From Jiangella mangrovi (lineage in GTDB: Bacteria; Actinomycetota; Actinomycetes; Jiangellales; Jiangellaceae): DNA of 64,000 nt. The notes beneath the pieces are model-generated. The model was not told the DNA's origin. It did not search any database and worked only from the letters and a program-made list of their open reading frames with translations. Each line of letters begins with the position of its first letter. The first letter of the stretch is position 1. Shown here in pieces: positions 37,891 to 50,047 of the stretch. The position numbers and the translations under genes are program-made. The stretch is taken from assembly GCF_014204975.1 (NCBI RefSeq), contig NZ_JACHMM010000001.1, positions 2,294,001 through 2,358,000 on the forward strand, given 5' to 3'.

Positions 37891-38721
37891 TCAGCGGCGC
37901 GGCAGGATCACGGGTGCGCCCGTGCGCGGGTGCGCGATCACCTCGACGTCGTGGTCGTAGACGTCGGAGAGCAGTGCGCCGCCGAGCACGTCGCGCGGCG
38001 GTCCGGTCGCGACGATGCGGCCGCCCGCGAGGACGGCGACCCGGTCGGCGTGTGCTGCGGCGAGGTTGAGGTCGTGCAGGACCACGACGACGGCGACGCC
38101 TGCCGCCGCGCGGGTCCGGGCGGTATCGAGGACGAGCTCCTGGTGGCGCAGGTCGAGCGCGGCCGTCGGCTCGTCCAGCAACAGCAGGCCGGTCCGCTGC
38201 GCCAGCACGCGCGCCAGCGCCACCCGGGCCTGCTCGCCTCCGGACAGCGACGTGAACCGGCGCGCGGCGAACTGCGCGACGTCCGCGTCGGCCAGCGCGG
38301 CCGCGACCGCCTCGTCGTCGGCGTCCTCGAGCGGGGTCCCGGCCCAGGGCGCCCGGCCCATCGTGACGACGTCGGCGACGGTGAACGGGAACGAGAGCCG
38401 CACCTGCTGCAGGAGGACGGCGCGGCGCATCGCGGACTCGGTCGCCGACCATGCGGTCAGCGGCTCGCCGTGCAGCGTCACCGACCCGGCCGACACCGCG
38501 ACGTCGCCGGTGAGCGCCGAGAGCAGCGTGGACTTGCCGGCGCCGTTGGGCCCGACCAGCGCGAGCACCTCACCCGCGCGGACCTCGACGCTCACGCCGT
38601 CGAGCACGCGCGCCCCGCCGAGGACGACGGAGACCCCGGCCGCCGCCGCCACGATCATCCCCGGATCCTGCGTCGGAGCGGGCCGCCGCGGCGCCCGCCG
38701 CAACGACAGCGCCGCTCTCAT
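37891..38721 (-). CDS. hmuV: haem ABC transporter ATPase
   Basis: The 276-residue ATPase has Walker A GPNGAGKST, signature LSGGEQAR, Walker B LLLLDEPTAALD and H-loop VLHDLNLA. The extended first 25 residues precede the usual ATPase start. It couples ATP hydrolysis to haem import with HmuU. The ATG overlaps the hmuU stop by four bases. It is the last gene of the hmuOTUV operon; the terminator beyond it is shared. Confidence 0.92.
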   Translation of the reverse strand: MRAALSLRRAPRRPAPTQDPGMIVAAAAGVSVVLGGARVLDGVSVEVRAGEVLALVGPNGAGKSTLLSALTGDVAVSAGSVTLHGEPLTAWSATESAMRRAVLLQQVRLSFPFTVADVVTMGRAPWAGTPLEDADDEAVAAALADADVAQFAARRFTSLSGGEQARVALARVLAQRTGLLLLDEPTAALDLRHQELVLDTARTRAAAGVAVVVVLHDLNLAAAHADRVAVLAGGRIVATGPPRDVLGGALLSDVYDHDVEVIAHPRTGAPVILPRR

Positions 38722-39878
38722 GCCCAGCCGCCCTGGCTGGTCCGGGTCCGGCGCAGCAGCCAGAAGAACAGCGGGCCGCCGACCAGCGCGGTCAGCATGC
38801 CGAGGGGCAGGTCGGCGTAGCGGATCGCGGTCCGGGCGACCAGGTCGGCCGAGACCAGCAGCAGCGCCCCGCCGAGCGCGCTGGCCGGCAGCAGCACGCG
38901 GTGCCCGGGCCCGGCGATCATCCGGATCAGGTGCGGCACGACCAGGCCGACGAAGCCGATGACGCCGGCGAACGCGACCCCGGAGCCGACCAGCATCGCC
39001 ACCGCGACGATCGCCACCAGCCGCAGCCGTTCCACCCGCACCCCCAGGTGCCGGGCCGACCGTTCGCCGAGTGCCAGCAGGTCCAGCGAGCGCGCCATGG
39101 CGAACGCGAGCAGCAGCCCGATCGCCACGAACGGCAGTACCGCCAGGACCGCCTGCCAGCGCGCGCCGTTGAGGCTGCCCAGCTGCCAGAACACGATCTG
39201 CTCGCGCGCCTCGGGCGTGGCGACGAACGTCGCGAACGCCACGATCGCGAACGCGACGGCGGTGACGGCGACGCCGGTGAGCACCAGCGTGACGACTTCC
39301 GTCCGCCCGGCGGACCTCGACAGCGCGTACACCAGCAGCGTCGTCACCAGCCCGGTCGCGAACGCCGCCACCGCGACCGTCCACTCGCCCAGGAAGTTCG
39401 CCCCCGTGACGAACACCAGACTGGCCCCGACGGCGGCACCCGGCGACACCCCGACGATGGCGGGTTCGGCCAGCGGGTTGCCGAACACGCCCTGCATCAG
39501 CGCGCCGGCCGTGGCCAGTGCGGCGCCGACGAGCAGCGCCAGCACGACCCGCGGGAAGCGGACCAGCCAGAGCGTGTTCTCGCCCTGCACGTGCTGCGGC
39601 CGCGGCCCCACGTCGAGCGGCAGGTCCGCCGTCACGCCGATCTGCGCGAGCACCCACTCGAGGTTCGCGTCGAGGCGGTGCATGATCGAGCCGACGACCT
39701 CCGACGGCGGGATCGCCAGCTGACCTCGTCCGGCCGACACGATCGTCACCACGACGAGCGCGACCGACAGTCCGCCGATCAGCAGCACGCCGCGGCTGCG
39801 TCGCCAGCGGCTCGGCCGGGCAGCCGCGGCCTCCGCCGTCGCCGGCGCTTCCGGTGGCGCCGACACCGTCGCCGTCAT
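38718..39878 (-). CDS. hmuU: haem ABC transporter permease
   Basis: FecCD-family permease of 386 residues with about 10 helices; GALMQGVFGNPLAEPAIVGVSPGAA and GVIGFVGLVVPHLIRMIAGP are diagnostic, and the FWQLGSLNGARW loop is typical of haem permeases. A 45-residue insert after the first helix (IGVTADLPLDVGPRPQHVQGENTLW region) would face outward. Four-base overlaps with hmuT and hmuV show translational coupling. Confidence 0.92.
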   Translation of the reverse strand: MTATVSAPPEAPATAEAAAARPSRWRRSRGVLLIGGLSVALVVVTIVSAGRGQLAIPPSEVVGSIMHRLDANLEWVLAQIGVTADLPLDVGPRPQHVQGENTLWLVRFPRVVLALLVGAALATAGALMQGVFGNPLAEPAIVGVSPGAAVGASLVFVTGANFLGEWTVAVAAFATGLVTTLLVYALSRSAGRTEVVTLVLTGVAVTAVAFAIVAFATFVATPEAREQIVFWQLGSLNGARWQAVLAVLPFVAIGLLLAFAMARSLDLLALGERSARHLGVRVERLRLVAIVAVAMLVGSGVAFAGVIGFVGLVVPHLIRMIAGPGHRVLLPASALGGALLLVSADLVARTAIRYADLPLGMLTALVGGPLFFWLLRRTRTSQGGWA

Positions 39879-41053
39879 GGCTGGTAGACGGCGTGCGCGA
39901 GCGCCTCGATGGTGCGGCCCGTGCGCGGCCCGAAGCTGAGCAGGACGGAGTCGGCCATGTCGACGACGCGCAGCTTCTCGCCGGCCGGAGTCTGCGCGAC
40001 GCCGGGCAGCTTCAGCATGCCGTCGACGCCGCCGATGGACTCGAGGCCCTTGGTCATCATGATGATGACGTCGGGGGCGGCCTCGATCAGCGCCTCGGAC
40101 GTGATCTGCGTGAACGGCCGGTCCAGCCCGATGTCGGTGCCGACGTCGACGGCGCCGATCGAGCGGATCATCGCGTCGGCGCCCGAGCCCGGGCCGGCCA
40201 GCAGCTGCACCATGCCGCCGCGGGTGTAGAGGAACGCGATGCGCAGCGGGTCGGCGCCGGCCGGGGCGAGCGCCAGTGCGTCGGCGATCTCGCCGGACGT
40301 CCGCTCGACCAGCTGCTCGCCGGCCTCGGGGACGCCCAGGGCGCCGGCGACCGCGCGGATCTGGCTCGGGATGCGGTCGAGGTCGCGGGCGTCGTCGAAG
40401 AAGACCACCGGGATGCCGGCGTCGCGCAGCTGCTGCTGCACCTCGGGCGGGCCGACGCTGGCGTCGGTGAGTACGACGGTCGGGTCCAGCTCGAGGATCG
40501 CCTCGGCGTTCATGTCGTGCCCGCCGGGCGTGACCAGCGGCAGGTCCGCCGCCTGCGGGAAGCCGGTCGAGGCGTCGCGGCCGACGACCCGGTCGCCGAG
40601 GCCGAGGCTGAACACGATCTCGGCCAGCGTGCCGTAGAGGTCGACGGCGAGGATGCGGCTGGCGTCGTCGATGACGACGGTCTCGCCGTCGCAGGAGTGC
40701 ACCGTCACCGGGAGCGCGGGTGTCACGTCGTCGGCCACCGGGAAGACCGTCTGATCGACCGTCGCGGTGGACGGCCCGAGGATCTCGCGCGGGTCCTGTT
40801 CCGCGGCCGACCCGGAACCCGCCGGGCGCTCAGGCAACGGCTCACCATCGGCGTCGACGGTGACGGCGAACCCTTCGACCGGGTCCTGACAGGCGTCGAC
40901 GGGCTCCGTCGTGGCCGCGACCTGCGTGCTGCCGGCCGGTGGCGGGGCGCCGGTCCCCTCGCCGGCCGTCTCGTCCGAGGGTGCCACGCACGCCGCCAGC
41001 CCGACCAGCAGGCCAGCCGCCGCGACGACCAGCCCGCGCCCCCCGAGCGCCAC
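39875..41053 (-). CDS. hmuT: haem-binding lipoprotein
   Basis: The 392-residue lipoprotein has signal peptide and lipobox LLVGLAAC (lipidated Cys about residue 22), a linker rich in Ala/Pro/Glu (25-85), then a class III periplasmic-binding domain: RILAVDLYGTLAEIVFSLGLGDRVVGRD, GHDMNAEAILELDPTVVL, and IEAAPDVIIMMTKGLESIGG. An N-terminal portion with DACQDPVEGFAV and VHSCDG has two cysteines. It hands haem to HmuU. The gene starts 2 bases after hmuO and overlaps hmuU by four. Confidence 0.92.
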   Translation of the reverse strand: MALGGRGLVVAAAGLLVGLAACVAPSDETAGEGTGAPPPAGSTQVAATTEPVDACQDPVEGFAVTVDADGEPLPERPAGSGSAAEQDPREILGPSTATVDQTVFPVADDVTPALPVTVHSCDGETVVIDDASRILAVDLYGTLAEIVFSLGLGDRVVGRDASTGFPQAADLPLVTPGGHDMNAEAILELDPTVVLTDASVGPPEVQQQLRDAGIPVVFFDDARDLDRIPSQIRAVAGALGVPEAGEQLVERTSGEIADALALAPAGADPLRIAFLYTRGGMVQLLAGPGSGADAMIRSIGAVDVGTDIGLDRPFTQITSEALIEAAPDVIIMMTKGLESIGGVDGMLKLPGVAQTPAGEKLRVVDMADSVLLSFGPRTGRTIEALAHAVYQP

Positions 41054-41054
41054 G

Positions 41055-41735
41055 TCAGCCGGCCGCGGGGTGCGCGGCGCCGAGCTCGACGAAGATCTCG
41101 GTGTTGAGGCCGTAGGCGAGGATCACCTCGTCGATGACGCGCTCGCGCTCGTCCGGGTTCCACGGCGCGGCGTCGAGGCGGGCGCGGTAGGCGTCCTTGA
41201 ACGGGCGCGGCTTCGGGATCCGGTCGAAGTGGTAGAACCGCACGCCGTCGCCGCCGAGATCGAGGCCGTACGTGCGCGACACGAGCGTGCCGACCGCGAG
41301 GCCGCCGGAGAGATCGCCCAGATAGCGGGTGTAGTGGTGGGCGACGAAGCCGCCCGGCCACTGCGCGGTCTCGCGGATGCGGTCGGCGTAGCGGCGGGTC
41401 GCGGGCAGCGCCTCGAGGTCGTCGATGGCGTCGGCGCCGCCCAGTAGGTGGGCGAGGTCGGCCCGCAGCGACGGGACCCGCTCGAGCTCGTCGGTGACGA
41501 ACGGGCCGGCGACGGGGTCGTCGCGCATGCCCGCCGCGACGGACTCCAGCGCCTCGTAGACGAACAGGTGCTGCGTGACGAGCGCGGTGTAGCCCTCGCG
41601 GCTGATCCGGCCCTCCATCAGCGCGTTGATGAAGCCCGCGCCGTTGGCGACGTCGTGCAGAGGCCAGCTGCGCTCGCGCAGGGCCTGGGAGAACGTTCGG
41701 GGCTCGGCCTCGGCCGGCGTACGGGTGGTCGGCAC
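41055..41735 (-). CDS. hmuO: haem oxygenase
   Basis: Cytoplasmic enzyme of 226 residues that opens haem to biliverdin, CO and Fe2+. The likely proximal ligand is His27 in SWPLHDVANGAGF; the distal helix has HHYTRYLGDLSGG; FVYEALE is also conserved. The GTG at 41733-41735 has a GGAGGAG ribosome site. It is the promoter-proximal gene of hmuOTUV, about 50-65 bases from two iron boxes, so it should be induced by iron starvation. Confidence 0.94.
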   Translation of the reverse strand: MPTTRTPAEAEPRTFSQALRERSWPLHDVANGAGFINALMEGRISREGYTALVTQHLFVYEALESVAAGMRDDPVAGPFVTDELERVPSLRADLAHLLGGADAIDDLEALPATRRYADRIRETAQWPGGFVAHHYTRYLGDLSGGLAVGTLVSRTYGLDLGGDGVRFYHFDRIPKPRPFKDAYRARLDAAPWNPDERERVIDEVILAYGLNTEIFVELGAAHPAAG

Positions 41736-41781
41736 GGAATCTCCTCCGGGTCGGCACTGCGGATGAGACAAGTATTGCATC

Positions 41782-41801: not shown

Positions 41802-41820
41802 GTAGGTATGCCTTACCTAT
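41802..41820. promoter_or_regulatory. DtxR/IdeR iron box 2 of the haem island
   Basis: GTAGGTATGCCTTACCTAT matches the consensus at 13 positions and contains a perfect TAGGTA/TACCTA dyad. One base separates it from box 1, giving a tandem arrangement about 20 bases apart centre to centre. Confidence 0.75.
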
Positions 41821-41876: not shown

Positions 41877-42635
41877 ATGTCGAACGTTTCCCGACGGCGC
41901 TCGCCACGCCGTCGACTCGTCACGGCCGTAGGGGTGGTGATCCTGGCGACCGGGGGCTTTGCCGGTACCGCGGCGGCCGCGTCAGGCACCGGGCCGGAGG
42001 GCCAGACGGTCACCGTCTCGAAGGTCGACGGGCTGACCCCCGGCGGTGAGACCGTCACCGTCCACGGCGAGGGCTTCGACCTCACCAAGGGCATCTACGT
42101 GGTCGTCTGCGTCAACACCGGCGCCGGCCAGCAGCCCACGCCGTGCCTCGGTGGCGCGGACATGGAGGGCGGCGGCGGAGCGTCGGCCTGGATCTCCTCG
42201 AACCCGCCGTCCTACGGCGAGGGCCTGGCCCAGCCGTTCGAGGAGGAGGGCGGCCGGGGCTCGTTCTCGGTGCAGCTGAACGTCGTCGCGAGCGACGAGT
42301 TCACCGACTGCCTCGATCCCTCCCAGGCGCCCAACGGCTGCGTCATCGGCACCCGCGCCGACCACACGCGTACCGCCGACCGCAGCGCCGACGTGCTGCT
42401 CCCGATCACCTTCGCCGGCGCCGGCGGCGCCGAGAACGGCGACGACGGTGGTGACGCCGGCGGCCGGCCGAGCCCGTCGCCGTCGTCGACCACGGGTGCG
42501 GCCGGTGGCGGGTCGGACCTCGCCCAGACCGGCGCCCCGATCGTCCCGGCCGCGCTGGCCGGACTGGCCCTGCTCGGCGGCGGAGTCGTGGCCGTCGCCG
42601 TCCGTCGTCGTACCGAGGAGACGATCCGACCGTGA
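41877..42635 (+). CDS. secreted surface protein with LAQTG sorting motif, HtaA-operon partner
   Basis: The 252-residue protein has a basic signal peptide (1-34), an Ig-like region (about 40-185) with conserved cysteines at VVCVNTG, TPCLGG, FTDCLD and NGCVIG, a Gly/Ser/Pro linker, LAQTG (215-219), a membrane helix and RRR tail. LAxTG is recognised by class E sortases. The Ig-like region resembles the last soluble module of the giant neighbour (YxxxxDCxxGCVLYLRTDHR), so they share ancestry. It is coupled to the giant gene by a GTGA overlap. Probably a wall-attached haem-relay protein. Confidence 0.78.
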   Translation: MSNVSRRRSPRRRLVTAVGVVILATGGFAGTAAAASGTGPEGQTVTVSKVDGLTPGGETVTVHGEGFDLTKGIYVVVCVNTGAGQQPTPCLGGADMEGGGGASAWISSNPPSYGEGLAQPFEEEGGRGSFSVQLNVVASDEFTDCLDPSQAPNGCVIGTRADHTRTADRSADVLLPITFAGAGGAENGDDGGDAGGRPSPSPSSTTGAAGGGSDLAQTGAPIVPAALAGLALLGGGVVAVAVRRRTEETIRP

Positions 42636-45600
42636 GGACCACAACGTTCAGGCGGACCGTCGCGACGGTGCTCGCCGCCGCGCTCGGGACCGGCACGCTG
42701 GTCGCCGGCGCCGCGCCCGCCGCCCTCGCGGCCGCCGCCGCCGAGGTCGCCGCCGCCGCACGCGATGCCGTCGACGGCACTCTCGACTGGGGCGTGAAGG
42801 CGTCGTTCCGGAACTACATCACCGGGCCGATCGCGCACGGCACGATCGACGTCGGCGACCCCGCGACCCGCAACTCCGACGGCACCTTCCGGTTCGCCGA
42901 CGCGACCGGCACCGCCGACCCCGACGCCGGCACCGCCGACCTGGCCTTCGCCGGTGAGGTCCGCTTCGCCGGCCACGACATGGGCGCCGGCCCGCTGCTG
43001 CAGCTCACCCTCACCGACCCGCGCGTGCAGGTGACGTCGGCGACCGACGGCGTGCTGGTGGCCGACGTGGTGAGCAAGTCGCTGGACTCCGGCGAGCTGG
43101 TCACCTACGACGACGTCGAGCTGGCCGACCTGGACCTGACCGGCCACCCGCTGACGTTCGACGGCGACACGGTGTCGGCGGCGGGGGTTCCCGCGACGCT
43201 GACCGCCGACGGCGTGCCGGCGTTCGCGAACTTCTACACCGCCGGCACGGCGCTGGACCCGCTGAGCTTCACCGCGACGCTCGAGGCCGCTGACCCGGAG
43301 CCGGTGTGGGAACCCGCCATCGAGGTGTTCGCGGCCGACGGCGTCACCCCCGTCGCCGAGGCGGAGCTGACCTACGGCGACACCGTCGTCGTGAAGGGCT
43401 CCGGCTTCGACCCGGCCGGCAACGTCGCCCCCGCGGGCAACCGTCCGCCGATCCCGGCCGGCGTCCCCGCGGGCACCTACATCGTGTTCGGCACGTTCGC
43501 CGACCAGTGGCGCCCGTCGCAGGGCGCGCCGTCGTCGGCCCGAGTCGTCGGCACGCAGAAGTGGGCGCTGGCCCAGGCCGCCCTGGACCAGGTGCCGGCC
43601 CAGTACCAGAGCGCCATCAGGGCCCAGTGGGCCGACGTGGCGCCGGACGGGACGTTCACCGCCGAGCTGACGCTGGCCAAGCCGGTCGACCGCACCACCG
43701 GCGAGCCGATCGAGTGGCCGGCGACCGGCGAGCTGGGCGTCTACACCTACGCCGCCGGCGGCACCACGAACGCCGACCAGGAGCTGGCGGCGCCGCTCAC
43801 CGTGACCGAGCCGGACCCGGACCCGGAGCCGGTCGACGTCACCGACGCCACCTTCGAGTGGGGCATCAACCTGGTCTCGCAGTACGGGTCGCCGGCCGGC
43901 GGCTGCAGCTTCTTCGTCGCCGGGATCGCCGACGGCACCGAGGCGAGCTACAAGACGCAGGACGGCGCCGTCCACCTGCTCAAGCGGCTGGACGACGGCC
44001 GCGCGACCGCGGTGACGGCGGAGAACCGCTGCTACCCGCTGGTCGACGACAAGATCAACCAGCGCGCGCTGTTCACCGAGGGCGCGGGCGAGCTGGACGC
44101 GACCGGCGCCGGCAGCATCGCCTGGACCGGCGCGTTCACCATCTACTCCTACGGCGGCATGGTGCCGTGGTACGTCAAGGACCCGGTGCTGACGCTGGAC
44201 GGCGAGGGCAACGGCGCCATCGCGGCGGAGGTCGGCGGGTTCGCGTCGTCGATGGAGGACCCGACCGTCAAGGAGCCGCTGGACCCCGAGCCGGGCGTCA
44301 CCATCCTCGAGCTCTCCGGCGTCACGATCGACGACGGCGTCGTCTCCGGCACGCCGGTCTACCAGGGTGTGGACTACTTCCCGCTCAACGACCCCACGGA
44401 CCCGGAGTCGGGCCGGCGCGAGACGTCGGCGATCCCGGACGACGCGAAGGCGGCCAACCCGAACTGGGGCTCGTGGCCGACGCCGATCGTCGACTTCCAG
44501 TACCGCACGGGGCTGTCGTCGTACTGGCACACCAGCGGCCTCAGCGCCGACCCGAACAAGCCGCCGCTGCCCGTCCTGATCGAGCTGGACGGCGGGGTGC
44601 CCGAGTTCGTCGACGTCGCGCCGATCAGCATCGTCCAGCAGCCGCAGTGGGCGCTCGTCGTCACCGGTGAGGACGCCACGTTCAGCGTCACCGCCGAGAG
44701 CGAGGCGGCGCTGACCTACCAGTGGCAGCGGCGCGCCCCGGGCACGGCGGACTGGGTGGACATCGAGGGCGCCACCGGTACCACGCTGACGCTGCCCGGC
44801 ATGACCGCGGCCGACACCGGCACCTACGTCCGCGTGGTGGTCGGCAACGGCACCATCGCGGCGACCTCGGACGCGGCCGGCGTGCAGGCCCAGGACGCGC
44901 AGGCGCCGAACCTGTGGTCGTCGCCCGAGGACGTCACCACGTTCGCCGGCTACAAGGCCCAGTTCAACGCCGACATCGCCGGCTGGCCGAGGCCCACCTA
45001 CCAGTGGCAGACCAGCGACGACGGCGGCGACACCTGGACCGACGACGGCGAGGCGGGGCAGTCGCCGTCGCTCGAGCTCACCGGCGTCACGGCCGGCCAG
45101 GACGGGCTGCTGGTCCGCGTGGTCGGCAGCAACGGCCGCGGGCCGGACGTCGTCACCGAGCCGGCCGAGCTGACCGTGCTGCCGGCGCCGGCCGAGCCGA
45201 CGCTGCGATTCCCCTCCGGCACCGAGCTGGACCCGGCCGACGAGTTCCTGGTGGTCCAGGCGTTGGGCGGCGGTTACCCGGTGCCTACCGGCGACACCAT
45301 CATGGCCGTCGTCGAGGCCGACGTGTGGGCCGCCCGCGACGACACGTTCGATGCCGAGACCGAAGCGGTCGCGTGGTCGAACCTGCAGTCGGTCAACTTC
45401 ACCGACGGGTTCGTCGACGCCGGGCTGTACGTCGGCCCGGGGCTGATCGACCCGGCGAAGGACTACGTGTTCGTCACGTACAGCACCACGCCGGGCGACC
45501 ACACCCACGACGCCGAGGTGGCGATCCCGTTCGCCGAGGGCGAGCCGACGTGGGAGCCGTCGATCGAGGTCTTCGCGGCCGACGGCGTCACCCCGGCCGC

Positions 45601-48600
45601 CGAGGCGGAGCTGGCCTACGGCGACACCGTCGTCGTGAAGGGCTCCGGTTTCGACCCGGCCGGCAACGTCGCGCCGGAGGGCAACCGTCCGCCGATCCCG
45701 GCCGGCGTCCCCGCGGGCACGTACGTCGTGCTCGGCACGTTCGCCGACCAGTGGCGACCGTCGGAGGGCGCGCCGTCGTCGGCCCGGGTCACCTCCACGC
45801 AGAAGTGGGCGCTGGCCGAGGCCGCGCTGGACCAGGTGCCGGCGCAGTTCCAGGGCGCCATCCGCGCGCAGTGGGTGGAGGTCGCGGCGGACGGCACGTT
45901 CACGGCCGAGCTGACGCTGGCGAAGCCGGCGGACCGCACGACGGGTGAGCCGGTGGAGTGGCCGGCCGACGGGACGCTGGGTGTCTACACCTACGCCGCG
46001 GGCGGCACGACCAACGCCGACCAGGAGCTGTCGGTCCCGCTGACCGTCACCGAGGACGAGGAGCCGGCCGGGCCGTCGCTCACGTTGTCGGCCTCGGCCG
46101 GGCTGGACAACGCCGGCACCAACGTCGTCGACGCGACCGGCGCCGGTTTCGACCCGCAGACCGCGATCGAGGTCGTGCAGGCGGTCCGCGTGGAGGGCGC
46201 GGACCCGACGACCTGGCCGAAGGCGATCGGCGCGGCCCGTGTCATGACCACCCCCGCCGGGGAGTTCCTGGTCCCGGCGTCGCTGAACCAGGTGACCTCG
46301 CGGTTCGTGCCCACCGGCAGTGGTGACGTCTACGACTGCAAGGTCGTGGAGTGCGTCGTGCTGGCCTACGACTTCGGCGACCAGGCCGACCGGACCCAGG
46401 ACGTGTGGGTGCCGATCGCGTTCGACGACGCCGAGCGGCCCGCGCCGTCGGCGACGCTGGACACCACCGAGTTCCCGGCCGAGGGCGGCGCCACCACGGT
46501 GACCGGCGGCGGGTTCATCGCCGGCGACCACCTGCTGGTCGTGCAGACCAGCGCGCTGGGCACGGCCGCCGACCCGCGCGAGCTGCCGCGCAACCCCGCC
46601 GGCACCAGCCAGCTGGTCCCCGGTGAGGGCGACGGTGCGTTCGCGTTGCGCCTCACCGACGTGACGCCCACCTTCACGACGGCCGACGGCGTGACCGTCG
46701 ACTGCCGCGAGGTGGAGTGCGCCGTGGCGGTCTTCCCGAGCCGCCGCGCCGACCTGGGCCAGAGCGTGTTCGTCCCGATCACGTTCGCCGAGGACGAGCC
46801 GCCGGCCGGCGACAGCTACCTCGACTGGGGCGTCAAGGCGTCGTTCCGCAGCTACATCACCGGCCCGATCGCGCACGGCTCCATCGAGGTGCGCGAGCCG
46901 GCGACGCAGAACGACGACGGCACGTACCGGTTCAACGACGGCACGGGGACCGGCTCCGCGTCGGAGGCGGCGCTGTCGTTCGGCGGCGAGGTCTACTTCT
47001 CGGGCCACGACATGGGCGCCGGCCCGCTGCTCGAGCTGACCATCACCGACCCGCGGGTCACCGTGTCGTCGGCTACGGCGGGCGTGCTGGTCGCCGACGT
47101 GGTCAGCAAGTCGCTGTCGTCGGGCGAACTGGTCACCTACGACGACGTGGAGTTCGCCGAGCTCGACTTCGCCGAGCACCCGGTGACCGTGACCGACGGG
47201 GTGGCCTCGGCGACCGGCGTCCCGGCCGCGCTGACGGCCGCCGGCGCCGAGGCGTTCGCCGGCTTCTACGCCGCCGGCACCGAGCTGGACGCCGTGACGT
47301 TCACCGTCGCCCTCGAGGACGAGCCGCCGGCGCCGACGCCGACCGTCACTGTCTCGGAGGTGGCCGACCTCGACCCGTACGCCGACCAGATCACCGTCGC
47401 CGGGTCCGGCTTCACGGCCGCCGACCTGGCCGGCGGGCTGCGGGTGGGCATCGGCGAGCCGACCGGCGACGGCAGCGTGCCGGCGCTGGACCCGGTGGAG
47501 ACCGTGACCTTCGAGCCGGCCGGCCTGCTCGGGTTCGCCCGGGCAGCGCTGCTCGGCGAGTTCGAGGTCACGCTCACCACCCAGGCGGTGGCGCCGGGCA
47601 CGACGCTGGCGGTCCACACGTCGCCGGTCGACCCGGAGGCGGACCCGGCGTTCACGACGCAGACGCCGATCAGGTTCGCTGACGTGCGGACCCCGCAGCT
47701 CACCGTCACCCCGTCGGAGGAGCTGGCGGTCGGTACCGAGGTGATCATCGAGGGCACCGGCTTCGCGCCGAACCGCCGCATCTCGCTGGCGTTCACCGGG
47801 GGCGTCGAGCAGGACCCCGAGTACGGCTGGCCGACCGGCTGGCTGCAGCACGAGGTCGTGCAAGCCGGCGCCGACGGCACGCTGTCGCGGACGCTGGTCG
47901 TGGCGGGCACCGTCACCGGCAGCGACGTGGACTGCGTGACGACCGCCTGCTTCGTGGCGAGCTTCAGCTCGGCGCAGGAGGCCGACGCGACGCCGGTGGA
48001 CTACCGCGCCGACCGGAGCCAGGACGTGCTGGTCCCGGTGACGTTCGCCGACGTGACCGACCCCGAGCCGGAGCCGCCGGCTGTCGCCGTCGCTCCCGAC
48101 CCGGCCGTGCAGGGCGAGCCCGTGACCTTCACCGGCATCGGGCTCGTGCCCGGCACGACGGTGGCGGCAGTGGTCGACCGCGACGAGGCGCCGGTGGGTG
48201 CCGGCACGCTCGACTGGGGCGTCAAGGCGTCGTTCCGGAACTACATCACCGGTCCGATCGCGCACGGCTCCATAGAGGTGCGCGACCCGGCGAGCGAGAA
48301 CGCCGACGGCACGTACCGCTTCGCCGACGGCACGGGCGATGCGACCGCGCTGTCGTTCGGCGGCGAGGTCTACTTCTCCGGTCACGACATGGGCGCCGGC
48401 CCGCTGCTCGAGCTGACCATCACCGACCCGCGGGTTCAGGTGGCCTCGGCGACCGACGGCGTGCTGGTGGCCGACGTGGTCAGCAAGTCGCTGGCCAGCG
48501 GCGAGCTGGTGACCTACGACGACGTCGAGCTGGCGGCGCTGGACTTCACCGGCCACCCGGTGACCGAGACGGACGGCGTCGTCGCGGCGGCGGACGTGCC

Positions 48601-49909
48601 GGCGACGCTGACGGAGGACGGCGTGGCGGCGTTCGCGGACTTCTACGCCGCGGGCACCGAGCTGGACCCCGTCACGTTCTCGGTGCCGGTCGACGAGACC
48701 GCGGCAGCCCGCCTGGCGCGCGCGGCGGTCGAGGCCGGCACCGGCACCGTCGGCGACGACGGCACGGTCGAGATCGGCTGGACCGTTCCGGCCGAGTTCG
48801 CGGTCGGCGGGCACACCGTCGACCTGGTGGTCGCGGAGGAGTCGCTGGCGCGTGCGACGTTCACCGTGGAGGCGGCCGACGAGGAACCCGAGCCCGAACC
48901 GGACCCGGAGCCGTCGGTCACCGTCGACCCCGGGTCGGTGGCGCAGGGCGAGACGGTGACGTTCGCCGGCACCGACTTCGGCGCCGAGGAGAGTGTCGAG
49001 GCGACGATCGTCGTCGACGCCGCGACCGAGGAGCTCACCTTCGACAACGACCACGGCCAGGCCGTCACGGTGCGGTCGGCGGACGGTACTCCGCTGGTGC
49101 AGCGCGACGGCAGGCTGCTGGTCGTCGACGGTGGGGAGCTGGACGTGACGCTCACCGGGCTCGAGCCGACGAGCGAGGAGAACACGCCGGACGCGCCGGC
49201 CGGGTTCTACCTGCTGACGGCCGTCGACAACGGCCCCGGCGAGGTGGCGACGCCGGCCATCGGCGGCGCCGACACTACTGGCGAGACCGGCACGTCGCGG
49301 TGGATCACCAACTTCCCATACCCGGGGAGCGAGGACGTCGTGGTGCCCATCGAGGACGGCGTGGCCGAGACGCCGATCGCGCTGGTGGCGGCCGACGAGT
49401 ACGCCGACTGCGACGCCGGCTGCGTGCTGTACCTGCGCACCGACCACCGCTCGGCGGCGAACCGCGCGTTCGACCTGCGGGTGCCGCTGGAGTTCGTGAG
49501 CGCCGCCGAGCTGGCCGAGGCGGCGCAGGCCGACCCGGTGACCGTCACCGGCACGACGTCGGCCGACGGTTCCGTCGAGCTGGAGTGGACCGTGCCGGCC
49601 GACTCGCCGGTCGGCCCGGCGACGGTCACGCTGCGAGGAGCGGAGTCCGAGCGGTCCGCATCGGCGGAGTTCACGGTGGCGGCCGCCTCGACGGGCGACG
49701 ACGGCTCGGAGTCGGGCGACGACGACGGCGTCGACGAGAGCGGCGCGGACGACGGCGGGGACGACGTCGGGTCGGACAACGGGACCGAGGACGGCGACGG
49801 GCCGCTGCCCGACACCGGCACGGACCCGCTGTTCGTCCTGGGAGTCGGCGTGCTGCTGCTGGCCGGCGGCATCGCGGTTGCGCTGTACGACCGGCGGCGC
49901 CGAGCCTGA
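42632..49909 (+). CDS. giant cell-wall haem-binding protein with HtaA modules and LPDTG anchor
   Basis: The 2425-residue surface protein has a signal peptide (1-33) and HtaA modules at about 50-215, 405-600 (divergent), 1394-1560 and 1859-2020. Modules 1, 3 and 4 keep the tyrosine (SFRxYITG) and histidine (GHDMGAGPL) corresponding to known haem ligands. Between them are a duplicated 168-residue module (226-393, 974-1141), two Ig-like modules (about 663-745, 756-845), three neocarzinostatin-like modules with a DCxxxxCxV signature (about 1148-1265, 1270-1385, 1688-1810) and an acidic Gly/Asp linker before LPDTG (2392-2396), helix and RRRR. It would capture haem at the wall for HmuTUV. GTG start overlaps the upstream stop. 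Confidence 0.9.
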   Translation: MRTTTFRRTVATVLAAALGTGTLVAGAAPAALAAAAAEVAAAARDAVDGTLDWGVKASFRNYITGPIAHGTIDVGDPATRNSDGTFRFADATGTADPDAGTADLAFAGEVRFAGHDMGAGPLLQLTLTDPRVQVTSATDGVLVADVVSKSLDSGELVTYDDVELADLDLTGHPLTFDGDTVSAAGVPATLTADGVPAFANFYTAGTALDPLSFTATLEAADPEPVWEPAIEVFAADGVTPVAEAELTYGDTVVVKGSGFDPAGNVAPAGNRPPIPAGVPAGTYIVFGTFADQWRPSQGAPSSARVVGTQKWALAQAALDQVPAQYQSAIRAQWADVAPDGTFTAELTLAKPVDRTTGEPIEWPATGELGVYTYAAGGTTNADQELAAPLTVTEPDPDPEPVDVTDATFEWGINLVSQYGSPAGGCSFFVAGIADGTEASYKTQDGAVHLLKRLDDGRATAVTAENRCYPLVDDKINQRALFTEGAGELDATGAGSIAWTGAFTIYSYGGMVPWYVKDPVLTLDGEGNGAIAAEVGGFASSMEDPTVKEPLDPEPGVTILELSGVTIDDGVVSGTPVYQGVDYFPLNDPTDPESGRRETSAIPDDAKAANPNWGSWPTPIVDFQYRTGLSSYWHTSGLSADPNKPPLPVLIELDGGVPEFVDVAPISIVQQPQWALVVTGEDATFSVTAESEAALTYQWQRRAPGTADWVDIEGATGTTLTLPGMTAADTGTYVRVVVGNGTIAATSDAAGVQAQDAQAPNLWSSPEDVTTFAGYKAQFNADIAGWPRPTYQWQTSDDGGDTWTDDGEAGQSPSLELTGVTAGQDGLLVRVVGSNGRGPDVVTEPAELTVLPAPAEPTLRFPSGTELDPADEFLVVQALGGGYPVPTGDTIMAVVEADVWAARDDTFDAETEAVAWSNLQSVNFTDGFVDAGLYVGPGLIDPAKDYVFVTYSTTPGDHTHDAEVAIPFAEGEPTWEPSIEVFAADGVTPAAEAELAYGDTVVVKGSGFDPAGNVAPEGNRPPIPAGVPAGTYVVLGTFADQWRPSEGAPSSARVTSTQKWALAEAALDQVPAQFQGAIRAQWVEVAADGTFTAELTLAKPADRTTGEPVEWPADGTLGVYTYAAGGTTNADQELSVPLTVTEDEEPAGPSLTLSASAGLDNAGTNVVDATGAGFDPQTAIEVVQAVRVEGADPTTWPKAIGAARVMTTPAGEFLVPASLNQVTSRFVPTGSGDVYDCKVVECVVLAYDFGDQADRTQDVWVPIAFDDAERPAPSATLDTTEFPAEGGATTVTGGGFIAGDHLLVVQTSALGTAADPRELPRNPAGTSQLVPGEGDGAFALRLTDVTPTFTTADGVTVDCREVECAVAVFPSRRADLGQSVFVPITFAEDEPPAGDSYLDWGVKASFRSYITGPIAHGSIEVREPATQNDDGTYRFNDGTGTGSASEAALSFGGEVYFSGHDMGAGPLLELTITDPRVTVSSATAGVLVADVVSKSLSSGELVTYDDVEFAELDFAEHPVTVTDGVASATGVPAALTAAGAEAFAGFYAAGTELDAVTFTVALEDEPPAPTPTVTVSEVADLDPYADQITVAGSGFTAADLAGGLRVGIGEPTGDGSVPALDPVETVTFEPAGLLGFARAALLGEFEVTLTTQAVAPGTTLAVHTSPVDPEADPAFTTQTPIRFADVRTPQLTVTPSEELAVGTEVIIEGTGFAPNRRISLAFTGGVEQDPEYGWPTGWLQHEVVQAGADGTLSRTLVVAGTVTGSDVDCVTTACFVASFSSAQEADATPVDYRADRSQDVLVPVTFADVTDPEPEPPAVAVAPDPAVQGEPVTFTGIGLVPGTTVAAVVDRDEAPVGAGTLDWGVKASFRNYITGPIAHGSIEVRDPASENADGTYRFADGTGDATALSFGGEVYFSGHDMGAGPLLELTITDPRVQVASATDGVLVADVVSKSLASGELVTYDDVELAALDFTGHPVTETDGVVAAADVPATLTEDGVAAFADFYAAGTELDPVTFSVPVDETAAARLARAAVEAGTGTVGDDGTVEIGWTVPAEFAVGGHTVDLVVAEESLARATFTVEAADEEPEPEPDPEPSVTVDPGSVAQGETVTFAGTDFGAEESVEATIVVDAATEELTFDNDHGQAVTVRSADGTPLVQRDGRLLVVDGGELDVTLTGLEPTSEENTPDAPAGFYLLTAVDNGPGEVATPAIGGADTTGETGTSRWITNFPYPGSEDVVVPIEDGVAETPIALVAADEYADCDAGCVLYLRTDHRSAANRAFDLRVPLEFVSAAELAEAAQADPVTVTGTTSADGSVELEWTVPADSPVGPATVTLRGAESERSASAEFTVAAASTGDDGSESGDDDGVDESGADDGGDDVGSDNGTEDGDGPLPDTGTDPLFVLGVGVLLLAGGIAVALYDRRRRA
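43307..43810 (+). repeat. 168-residue internal repeat, copy 1
   Basis: Encodes WEPAIEVFAADGVTPV to PLTVTE. About 86% identical at protein level to the copy at 45551-46054, without gaps. It contains GDTVVVKGSGFDPAGN and TFADQWRPS motifs. Confidence 0.9.
45551..46054 (+). repeat. 168-residue internal repeat, copy 2
   Basis: Second copy of the module at 43307-43810, of exactly the same length (504 bases), 2244 bases downstream in the same gene. The high identity suggests recent duplication or gene conversion. Confidence 0.9.
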
Positions 49910-49919
49910 TCGCCGCAGG

Positions 49920-49955
49920 GGCACCGGGCCGTTCCGCAGCGGACGGCCCGGTGCC
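49920..49955 (+). terminator. intrinsic terminator after the giant HtaA gene
   Basis: GGCACCGGGCCGT (49920-49932) pairs with ACGGCCCGGTGCC (49943-49955) perfectly around a 10-base loop, 10 bases after the stop. Confidence 0.8.
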
Positions 49956-49998
49956 CGTCGCTGTCTGATGCAGTGCATCGTGCCCTCCGATCGGCTCA

Positions 49999-50047
49999 AA
50001 GTTGATCTTGGAATCAGGTTGGCATACTCTTCGTCCAAGATCAACTT
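49999..50047 (+). promoter_or_regulatory. 13-bp inverted repeat spanning the lysE-like promoter
   Basis: AAGTTGATCTTGG (49999-50011) and CCAAGATCAACTT (50035-50047) are perfect inverted arms 23 bases apart, with a CATACT minus-10-like element (50023-50028) between them. A dimeric repressor bound here would block the exporter promoter. Confidence 0.6.

Follow-up and report, generated by a model that had tools for sequence, protein, structure and literature searches.

Two questions are raised by a very large gene in the window, the 64,000-nucleotide stretch of Jiangella mangrovi DNA analysed here: what its surface protein does, and how so many modules are fitted into one chain. The open reading frame (42632-49909, plus strand) starts with GTG and encodes 2425 aa, limits and length that agree with a first-pass annotation made from the sequence alone (Table 1). 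That annotation had also called the size unusual, which was upheld, and known HtaA proteins much smaller and tandem, which mostly holds, the exceptions being HtaA open frames of 1000-1468 aa in other genera. Codon-position GC is 0.71/0.53/0.97, a strong coding bias typical of real genes here. An antisense frame of 2610 aa (42212-50044, minus strand), which exists because third-position GC is very high, covers the whole gene and was rejected for its wrong codon-position GC (0.95/0.54/0.72). The 2425-aa product has an N-terminal signal sequence and, at its C-terminus, an LPDTG motif (residues 2392-2396) with a hydrophobic tail, through which it is presumably anchored to the wall; the genome contains nine sortase-family matches. 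We consider it very probable that this is a sortase-anchored, iron-regulated haem-capture and relay protein of the HtaA (CR-domain) haem-uptake system, with a nested last CR domain. Most likely the uptake system is a known one and the new part is the domain architecture.

Table 1. Features of the haem-uptake locus and modules of the 2425-aa protein (positions in the window; res., residues of the protein)
Feature	Position	Strand	Basis
HmuV-like ABC ATPase, 255 aa	37891..38658	-	Sequence and conservation beside the locus; within longer ORF 37891-39657
HmuU-like permease	38718..39878	-	PF01032 FecCD, E 4e-89
HmuT-like haem-binding lipoprotein/substrate-binding protein	39875..41053	-	PF01497, E 7e-32
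Haem oxygenase (HmuO)	41055..41780	-	PF01126, E 1e-46
DtxR/IdeR-type iron box TTAGGTTTGCCTACCCCAA	41782..41800	.	Consensus match; conserved in Jiangella intergenic regions
Second, weaker DtxR/IdeR-type box	about 41802-41820	.	Conserved in Jiangella intergenic regions
252-aa secreted NCS-like surface protein, LAQTG anchor, four Cys	41877..42635	+	Sequence; distant solved relative 7qhm_M; synteny
2425-aa wall-anchored haem-capture protein (predicted)	42632..49909	+	ORF, Pfam, codon bias
HtaA/CR module 1 (res. 49-216): Ser58, axial Tyr62, helper His115, Tyr202	42776..43279	+	PF04213, alignment
NCS-related module A (res. 226-392)	43307..43807	+	hhalign 77% to small NCS protein family, 100% to module B
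HbpA-like module (res. 402-664), fourth HtaA of the first pass; Cys425/Cys467	43835..44623	+	AF2 pTM 0.89; Foldseek 9bcj TMt 0.69
Two I-set-like Ig domains (res. 666-850)	44627..45181	+	PF13927, E 2e-12, two stretches
NCS-related module B (res. 976-1142)	45557..46057	+	hhalign
Two NCS modules (res. 1145-1392), Cys pairs 1236/1241, 1358/1363	46064..46807	+	PF00960, E 5e-5, 3e-4
HtaA/CR module 2 (res. 1396-1560): Ser1404, Tyr1408, His1459, Tyr1546	46817..47311	+	PF04213, alignment
Two NCS modules (res. 1567-1806), Cys 1768/1773	47330..48049	+	PF00960, E 4e-9 for the second
First half, split Ig module 1 (res. 1816-1856, three strands)	48077..48199	+	Profile A1 positions 1-43; pLDDT 90-97
HtaA/CR module 3, inserted in Ig module 1 (res. 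1857-2024): Ser1867, Tyr1871, His1918, Tyr2005	48200..48703	+	PF04213, alignment, AF2, Foldseek
Second half, split Ig module 1 (res. 2030-2086, four strands)	48719..48889	+	Profile A1 to position 95; AF2
First half, split Ig module 2 (res. 2093-2131)	48908..49024	+	Profile A1 positions 1-41, E 1.2e-5; AF2
NCS-like insert of Ig module 2 (res. about 2141-2291), Cys2260/2264	49052..49504	+	Paralogue of 252-aa neighbour
Second half, split Ig module 2 (res. 2300-2352)	49529..49687	+	Profile A1 positions 40-95, E 1.2e-9; AF2
Acidic stalk, LPDTG sortase motif (2392-2396), hydrophobic tail, RRRR	49688..49909	+	Sequence; sortases in genome

The Pfam HtaA model (PF04213) matched the protein with E 4e-149, its three modules scoring 185, 168 and 164 bits against a cut-off of 24, and a genome-wide search returned exactly three HtaA domains, all within this gene and none elsewhere in the genome. 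Structural work has established that CR domains contact haemin through a Ser/Tyr/His/Tyr set, in which the Ser and the late Tyr are propionate contacts (PMC12494546). The Ser, axial Tyr, helper His and late Tyr are invariant in alignment with HtaA domains from other genera and are kept in all three modules. The CR beta-sandwich fold was recovered for module 3 only, for which Foldseek matched the AF2 model of residues 1812-2352 to 6jsa and 6jsc (TMt 0.81-0.83). The picture of a surface protein predicted to bind haem is thus borne out by the signal sequence, the LPDTG motif and three CR modules with their haem-contact residues kept; each of these modules would bind ferric haem through its axial Tyr.

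The surroundings of the gene are those of a haem-uptake system. HmuV, HmuU, HmuT and haem oxygenase are encoded on one side of a divergent layout, and the 252-aa NCS-like protein and the giant protein on the other, the smaller gene preceding the larger with a 4-base overlap. Within the 96-base divergent promoter sits TTAGGTTTGCCTACCCCAA, which agrees with the DtxR/IdeR-type consensus at 16/19 positions and is the sole match in the window at three or fewer mismatches (0 in 100 shuffles). Both iron boxes are kept in other Jiangella promoters, and related boxes occur in loci L036, L042, and L047. Jiangella and two other genera of the family share the cluster order (hmuTUV/hmuO divergent from the surface genes), and throughout Jiangellaceae the 252-aa NCS-like LAQTG gene adjoins the haem oxygenase gene. 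By analogy with what has been established for the corynebacterial system, this would be an iron-repressed haem-uptake locus. That the protein is instead mainly an adhesin or general surface scaffold with vestigial CR domains, as many Ig-like modules, great length and an LPXTG anchor might suggest, is very improbable given three CR domains with all haem-contact residues intact and the fixed synteny with hmuTUV/hmuO and the iron box. Two Jiangella genomes (G008 and G009) wholly lack an HtaA domain, and the system is therefore dispensable or has been lost.

Corynebacterium HtaA, HtaB and ChtA (PF04213) have in common with the Jiangella protein the CR fold, the axial Tyr, the helper His and the Ser and Tyr propionate contacts, and the corynebacterial HtaA system has the same operon partners (HmuTUV, HmuO) and DtxR-type control. 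Corynebacterial HtaA has two CR domains, whereas the giant protein has three, one of them nested in an Ig-like domain, in addition to extra HbpA-like and NCS-like modules, a length of 2425 aa and an LPDTG anchor. A C-terminal membrane helix is present in corynebacterial HtaA (PMC12494546).

Four HtaA-like modules had originally been counted. Three carry a Pfam match and every known haem-contact residue; the fourth (residues 402-664) gave nothing above cut-off with PF04213 and proved to be a remote relation only. Compared with HtaA by hhalign, it reached 17% from close orthologues alone and 93% over 68 columns with its wider family. Relatives of this module (~250 aa) were found in 24 of 247 sampled Actinomycete genomes (about 10%), and PF04213 hit 9 of 21 of them. 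Across the family (A5) neither an axial Tyr nor a helper His is conserved: what stands near the axial position varies, and an invariant Tyr lies close to the helper position. Foldseek gave HbpA (9bcj; TMt 0.69, E 1e-6) as the best PDB match of the AF2 model (pTM 0.89), with HtaA domains behind (TMt up to 0.56), and a profile search with the family reached HbpA at E 0.003, in weak collinear pieces along the chain that include a C-terminal D..K..PLTV stretch. In predicted fold the module is therefore closer to this haemoglobin receptor than to an ordinary HtaA domain. Because HbpA is the best fold match, and because haemoglobin is bound by HbpA and not by CR domains (PMC12494546), we name the module HbpA-like and make no claim that it binds haem. 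Compared with HbpA of C. diphtheriae (9bcj, 9bch), which it resembles in predicted fold and matches weakly and collinearly in sequence, the modelled stretch is 272 aa, some 70-80 residues longer than the HbpA chains, and embedded in a larger protein; the host genus is free-living in soil, and haemoglobin binding is putative. These matches suggest that the HbpA fold is spread among non-pathogenic Actinomycetes, which bears on the original ligand of the receptor family. A second gene in the same genome, outside the window (G000:C1:2425529-2426071, L189), encodes a partial HbpA-like module in a secreted product without a visible LPXTG.

The first-pass annotation had further proposed that two Ig-like modules near the C-terminus are split by insertions, the first by a whole HtaA module, and the peptides quoted for the halves were located at residues 1818, 2044, 2095 and 2313. 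A profile of 95 positions (A1) was built from the joined flanks of the third HtaA domain in 12 relatives. On its own genome, A1 found both halves of the first module (nest 1) and, independently, of the second (nest 2). Since it found positions 1-41 and 40-95 at nest 2, the second module belongs to the same domain family and is split at the same point. A contiguous copy was sought with A1 in the same genome and none was found; the unsplit form was therefore sought in other genomes. In other Actinomycete families A1 aligned end to end with contiguous domains (e.g., L113, positions 1-95, 37.6 bits, E 1.3e-10). A control profile with the halves swapped also hit tandem arrays (L121, L125), which is expected of repeats, and gave half-matches elsewhere; on single domains, L113 and L114 among them, its scores were lower than those of the correct order. 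Pfam searches with the joined halves returned weak matches to assorted Ig families, the best shared one being Big_3_5, and no single model covered the domain.

The nest pattern recurs in Jiangellaceae. Among 40 HtaA domains in other loci of the family, both Ig halves were present beside 14, neither beside 26, and a single half beside none; outside the family, none of 173 HtaA hits carried either half. Wherever an HtaA domain is nested, it is the final one of its protein, nearest to the anchor. Within the family, genera other than Jiangella have nest 1 only. The Jiangella locus L036, in a 5.6 Mb genome, has nest 2 and the haem cluster and is without nest 1 and the HbpA-like module.

Structure prediction of residues 1812-2352 was consistent with the split. 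In nest 1, AF2 placed strands at 6-10, 19-25 and 32-38 (model numbering) before the HtaA domain and at 221-228, 235-240, 248-256 and 259-269 after it, with pLDDT about 90-97. Nest 2 was likewise divided 3 + 4, and pLDDT exceeded 90 over most of both halves; the alignment for this nest comprised ten close sequences, and the insert was poorly modelled (pLDDT 26-60 in part). Strand pattern, pLDDT and homology suggest that the two halves contact each other as one domain. A beads-on-a-string arrangement, in which the HtaA and NCS modules simply stand in tandem and the half-sequences flanking them are separate mini-modules or short linkers, has in its favour that Ig-like linker sequences are common in such proteins and that pTM for the whole segment is 0.44, a value that mainly reflects loose domain arrangement. 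It is nevertheless very unlikely: left and right halves align, in order, with complementary stretches of a single 95-position domain, both nests share the split point, other genera have contiguous versions, halves never occur singly, and both are predicted with pLDDT above 90. The proposal that both Ig-like modules are split, at the same place, by insertions accordingly stands, in the sequence and in the predicted strand pattern, as does the placing of a whole HtaA module between the halves of the first.

The insert of nest 2 had been described as a neocarzinostatin-like (NCS-like) cysteine module, from which more than one kind of haem or chromophore pocket was suggested. The relationship is partly upheld. 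Pfam gave no match to the insert, which is NCS-like only through the 252-aa neighbour: on other Jiangella copies, tblastn related the two at 31-41% identity (E 1e-13 to 1e-20), and hhalign did likewise, with a score inflated by shared members. Elsewhere in the giant protein PF00960 was above cut-off for the whole chain, with clear modules at residues 1145-1806; the stretch 47684-48055 scored 36.9 bits against a cut-off of 25, and the other modules 21-24 bits, just below. Profile searches thus confirmed PF04213 for three modules and PF00960 for the protein and residues 1145-1806, but not for the second Ig insert.

A second type of planar-ligand site, with the NCS-like modules as additional haem or chromophore pockets, could be argued from the PF00960 match, from the place of the gene in a haem-uptake operon and from the NCBIfam chromoprotein model, which gave E 1e-16 yet reached 61 of the 86 bits of its cut-off. 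The cysteines point the other way. Both disulfide pairs, including the cleft disulfide, occur only in the 252-aa neighbour; the modules of the giant protein keep only CxxxxC-type (Cys88-Cys93-type) pairs and lack the aromatic contacts of neocarzinostatin by alignment, and the nest 2 insert has Ala at the neighbour's first Cys pair. Among solved structures, the neighbour is closest to a 7qhm chain named 'Thiamine biosynthesis protein X', which we take to be a subunit of the C. glutamicum respiratory supercomplex and not a chromoprotein. With the cleft disulfide kept only in the neighbour and this chain as its nearest solved relative, the suggested second pocket is unsupported, and we regard it as very improbable. 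NCS-type folds are common extracytoplasmic modules. Relative to neocarzinostatin-type apoproteins (PF00960) and the 7qhm NCS-like chain, several modules here match in sequence and conserve one disulfide, but they are without the cleft disulfide and are repeated or inserted, and no enediyne cluster was seen beside the gene. A literature search for HtaA together with neocarzinostatin found nothing.

The preferred reading remains that of a haem-capture and relay protein. Towards the outer end, the HbpA-like module is probably a docking site for a haem-carrying protein or some other ligand; haem bound by the CR domains would then be handed to HmuT/HmuUV and opened by haem oxygenase, and the Ig, NCS-like and acidic segments would together act as a long spacer reaching out from the wall. 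An Ig-like stalk domain encloses the last CR domain, with three strands before it and four after, and, because of this insertion, the CR domain would be held by two chain crossings; a copy of the NCS-like domain shared with the neighbouring surface protein interrupts the next Ig module at the same point. Through the nesting, the haem pocket may be kept firmly in place next to the cell wall, and such double attachment could fix the orientation of the domain close to the wall for transfer to HmuT. A more ambitious version, in which a single chain is a machine for capture, extraction and relay, with HbpA-like docking, several CR domains and a stalk-nested CR domain passing haem to HmuT, the nesting fixing this last carrier in the wall, is one that we advance tentatively and think rather unlikely. 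A CR domain tolerates insertion into a loop, as the engineered fusion of HtaA CR2 in EGFP (8smu) indicates; there too the CR domain lies within a loop of another beta domain, but 8smu is man-made and the Jiangella case natural. Such natural nesting of a CR domain within a stalk domain is conserved in one family and is seen in none of the others sampled; it makes testable whether geometry, here attachment by two chains close to the wall, has a bearing on the handing over of haem. Among the remaining modules, the I-set-like Ig domains match titin and Roundabout chains in the PDB.
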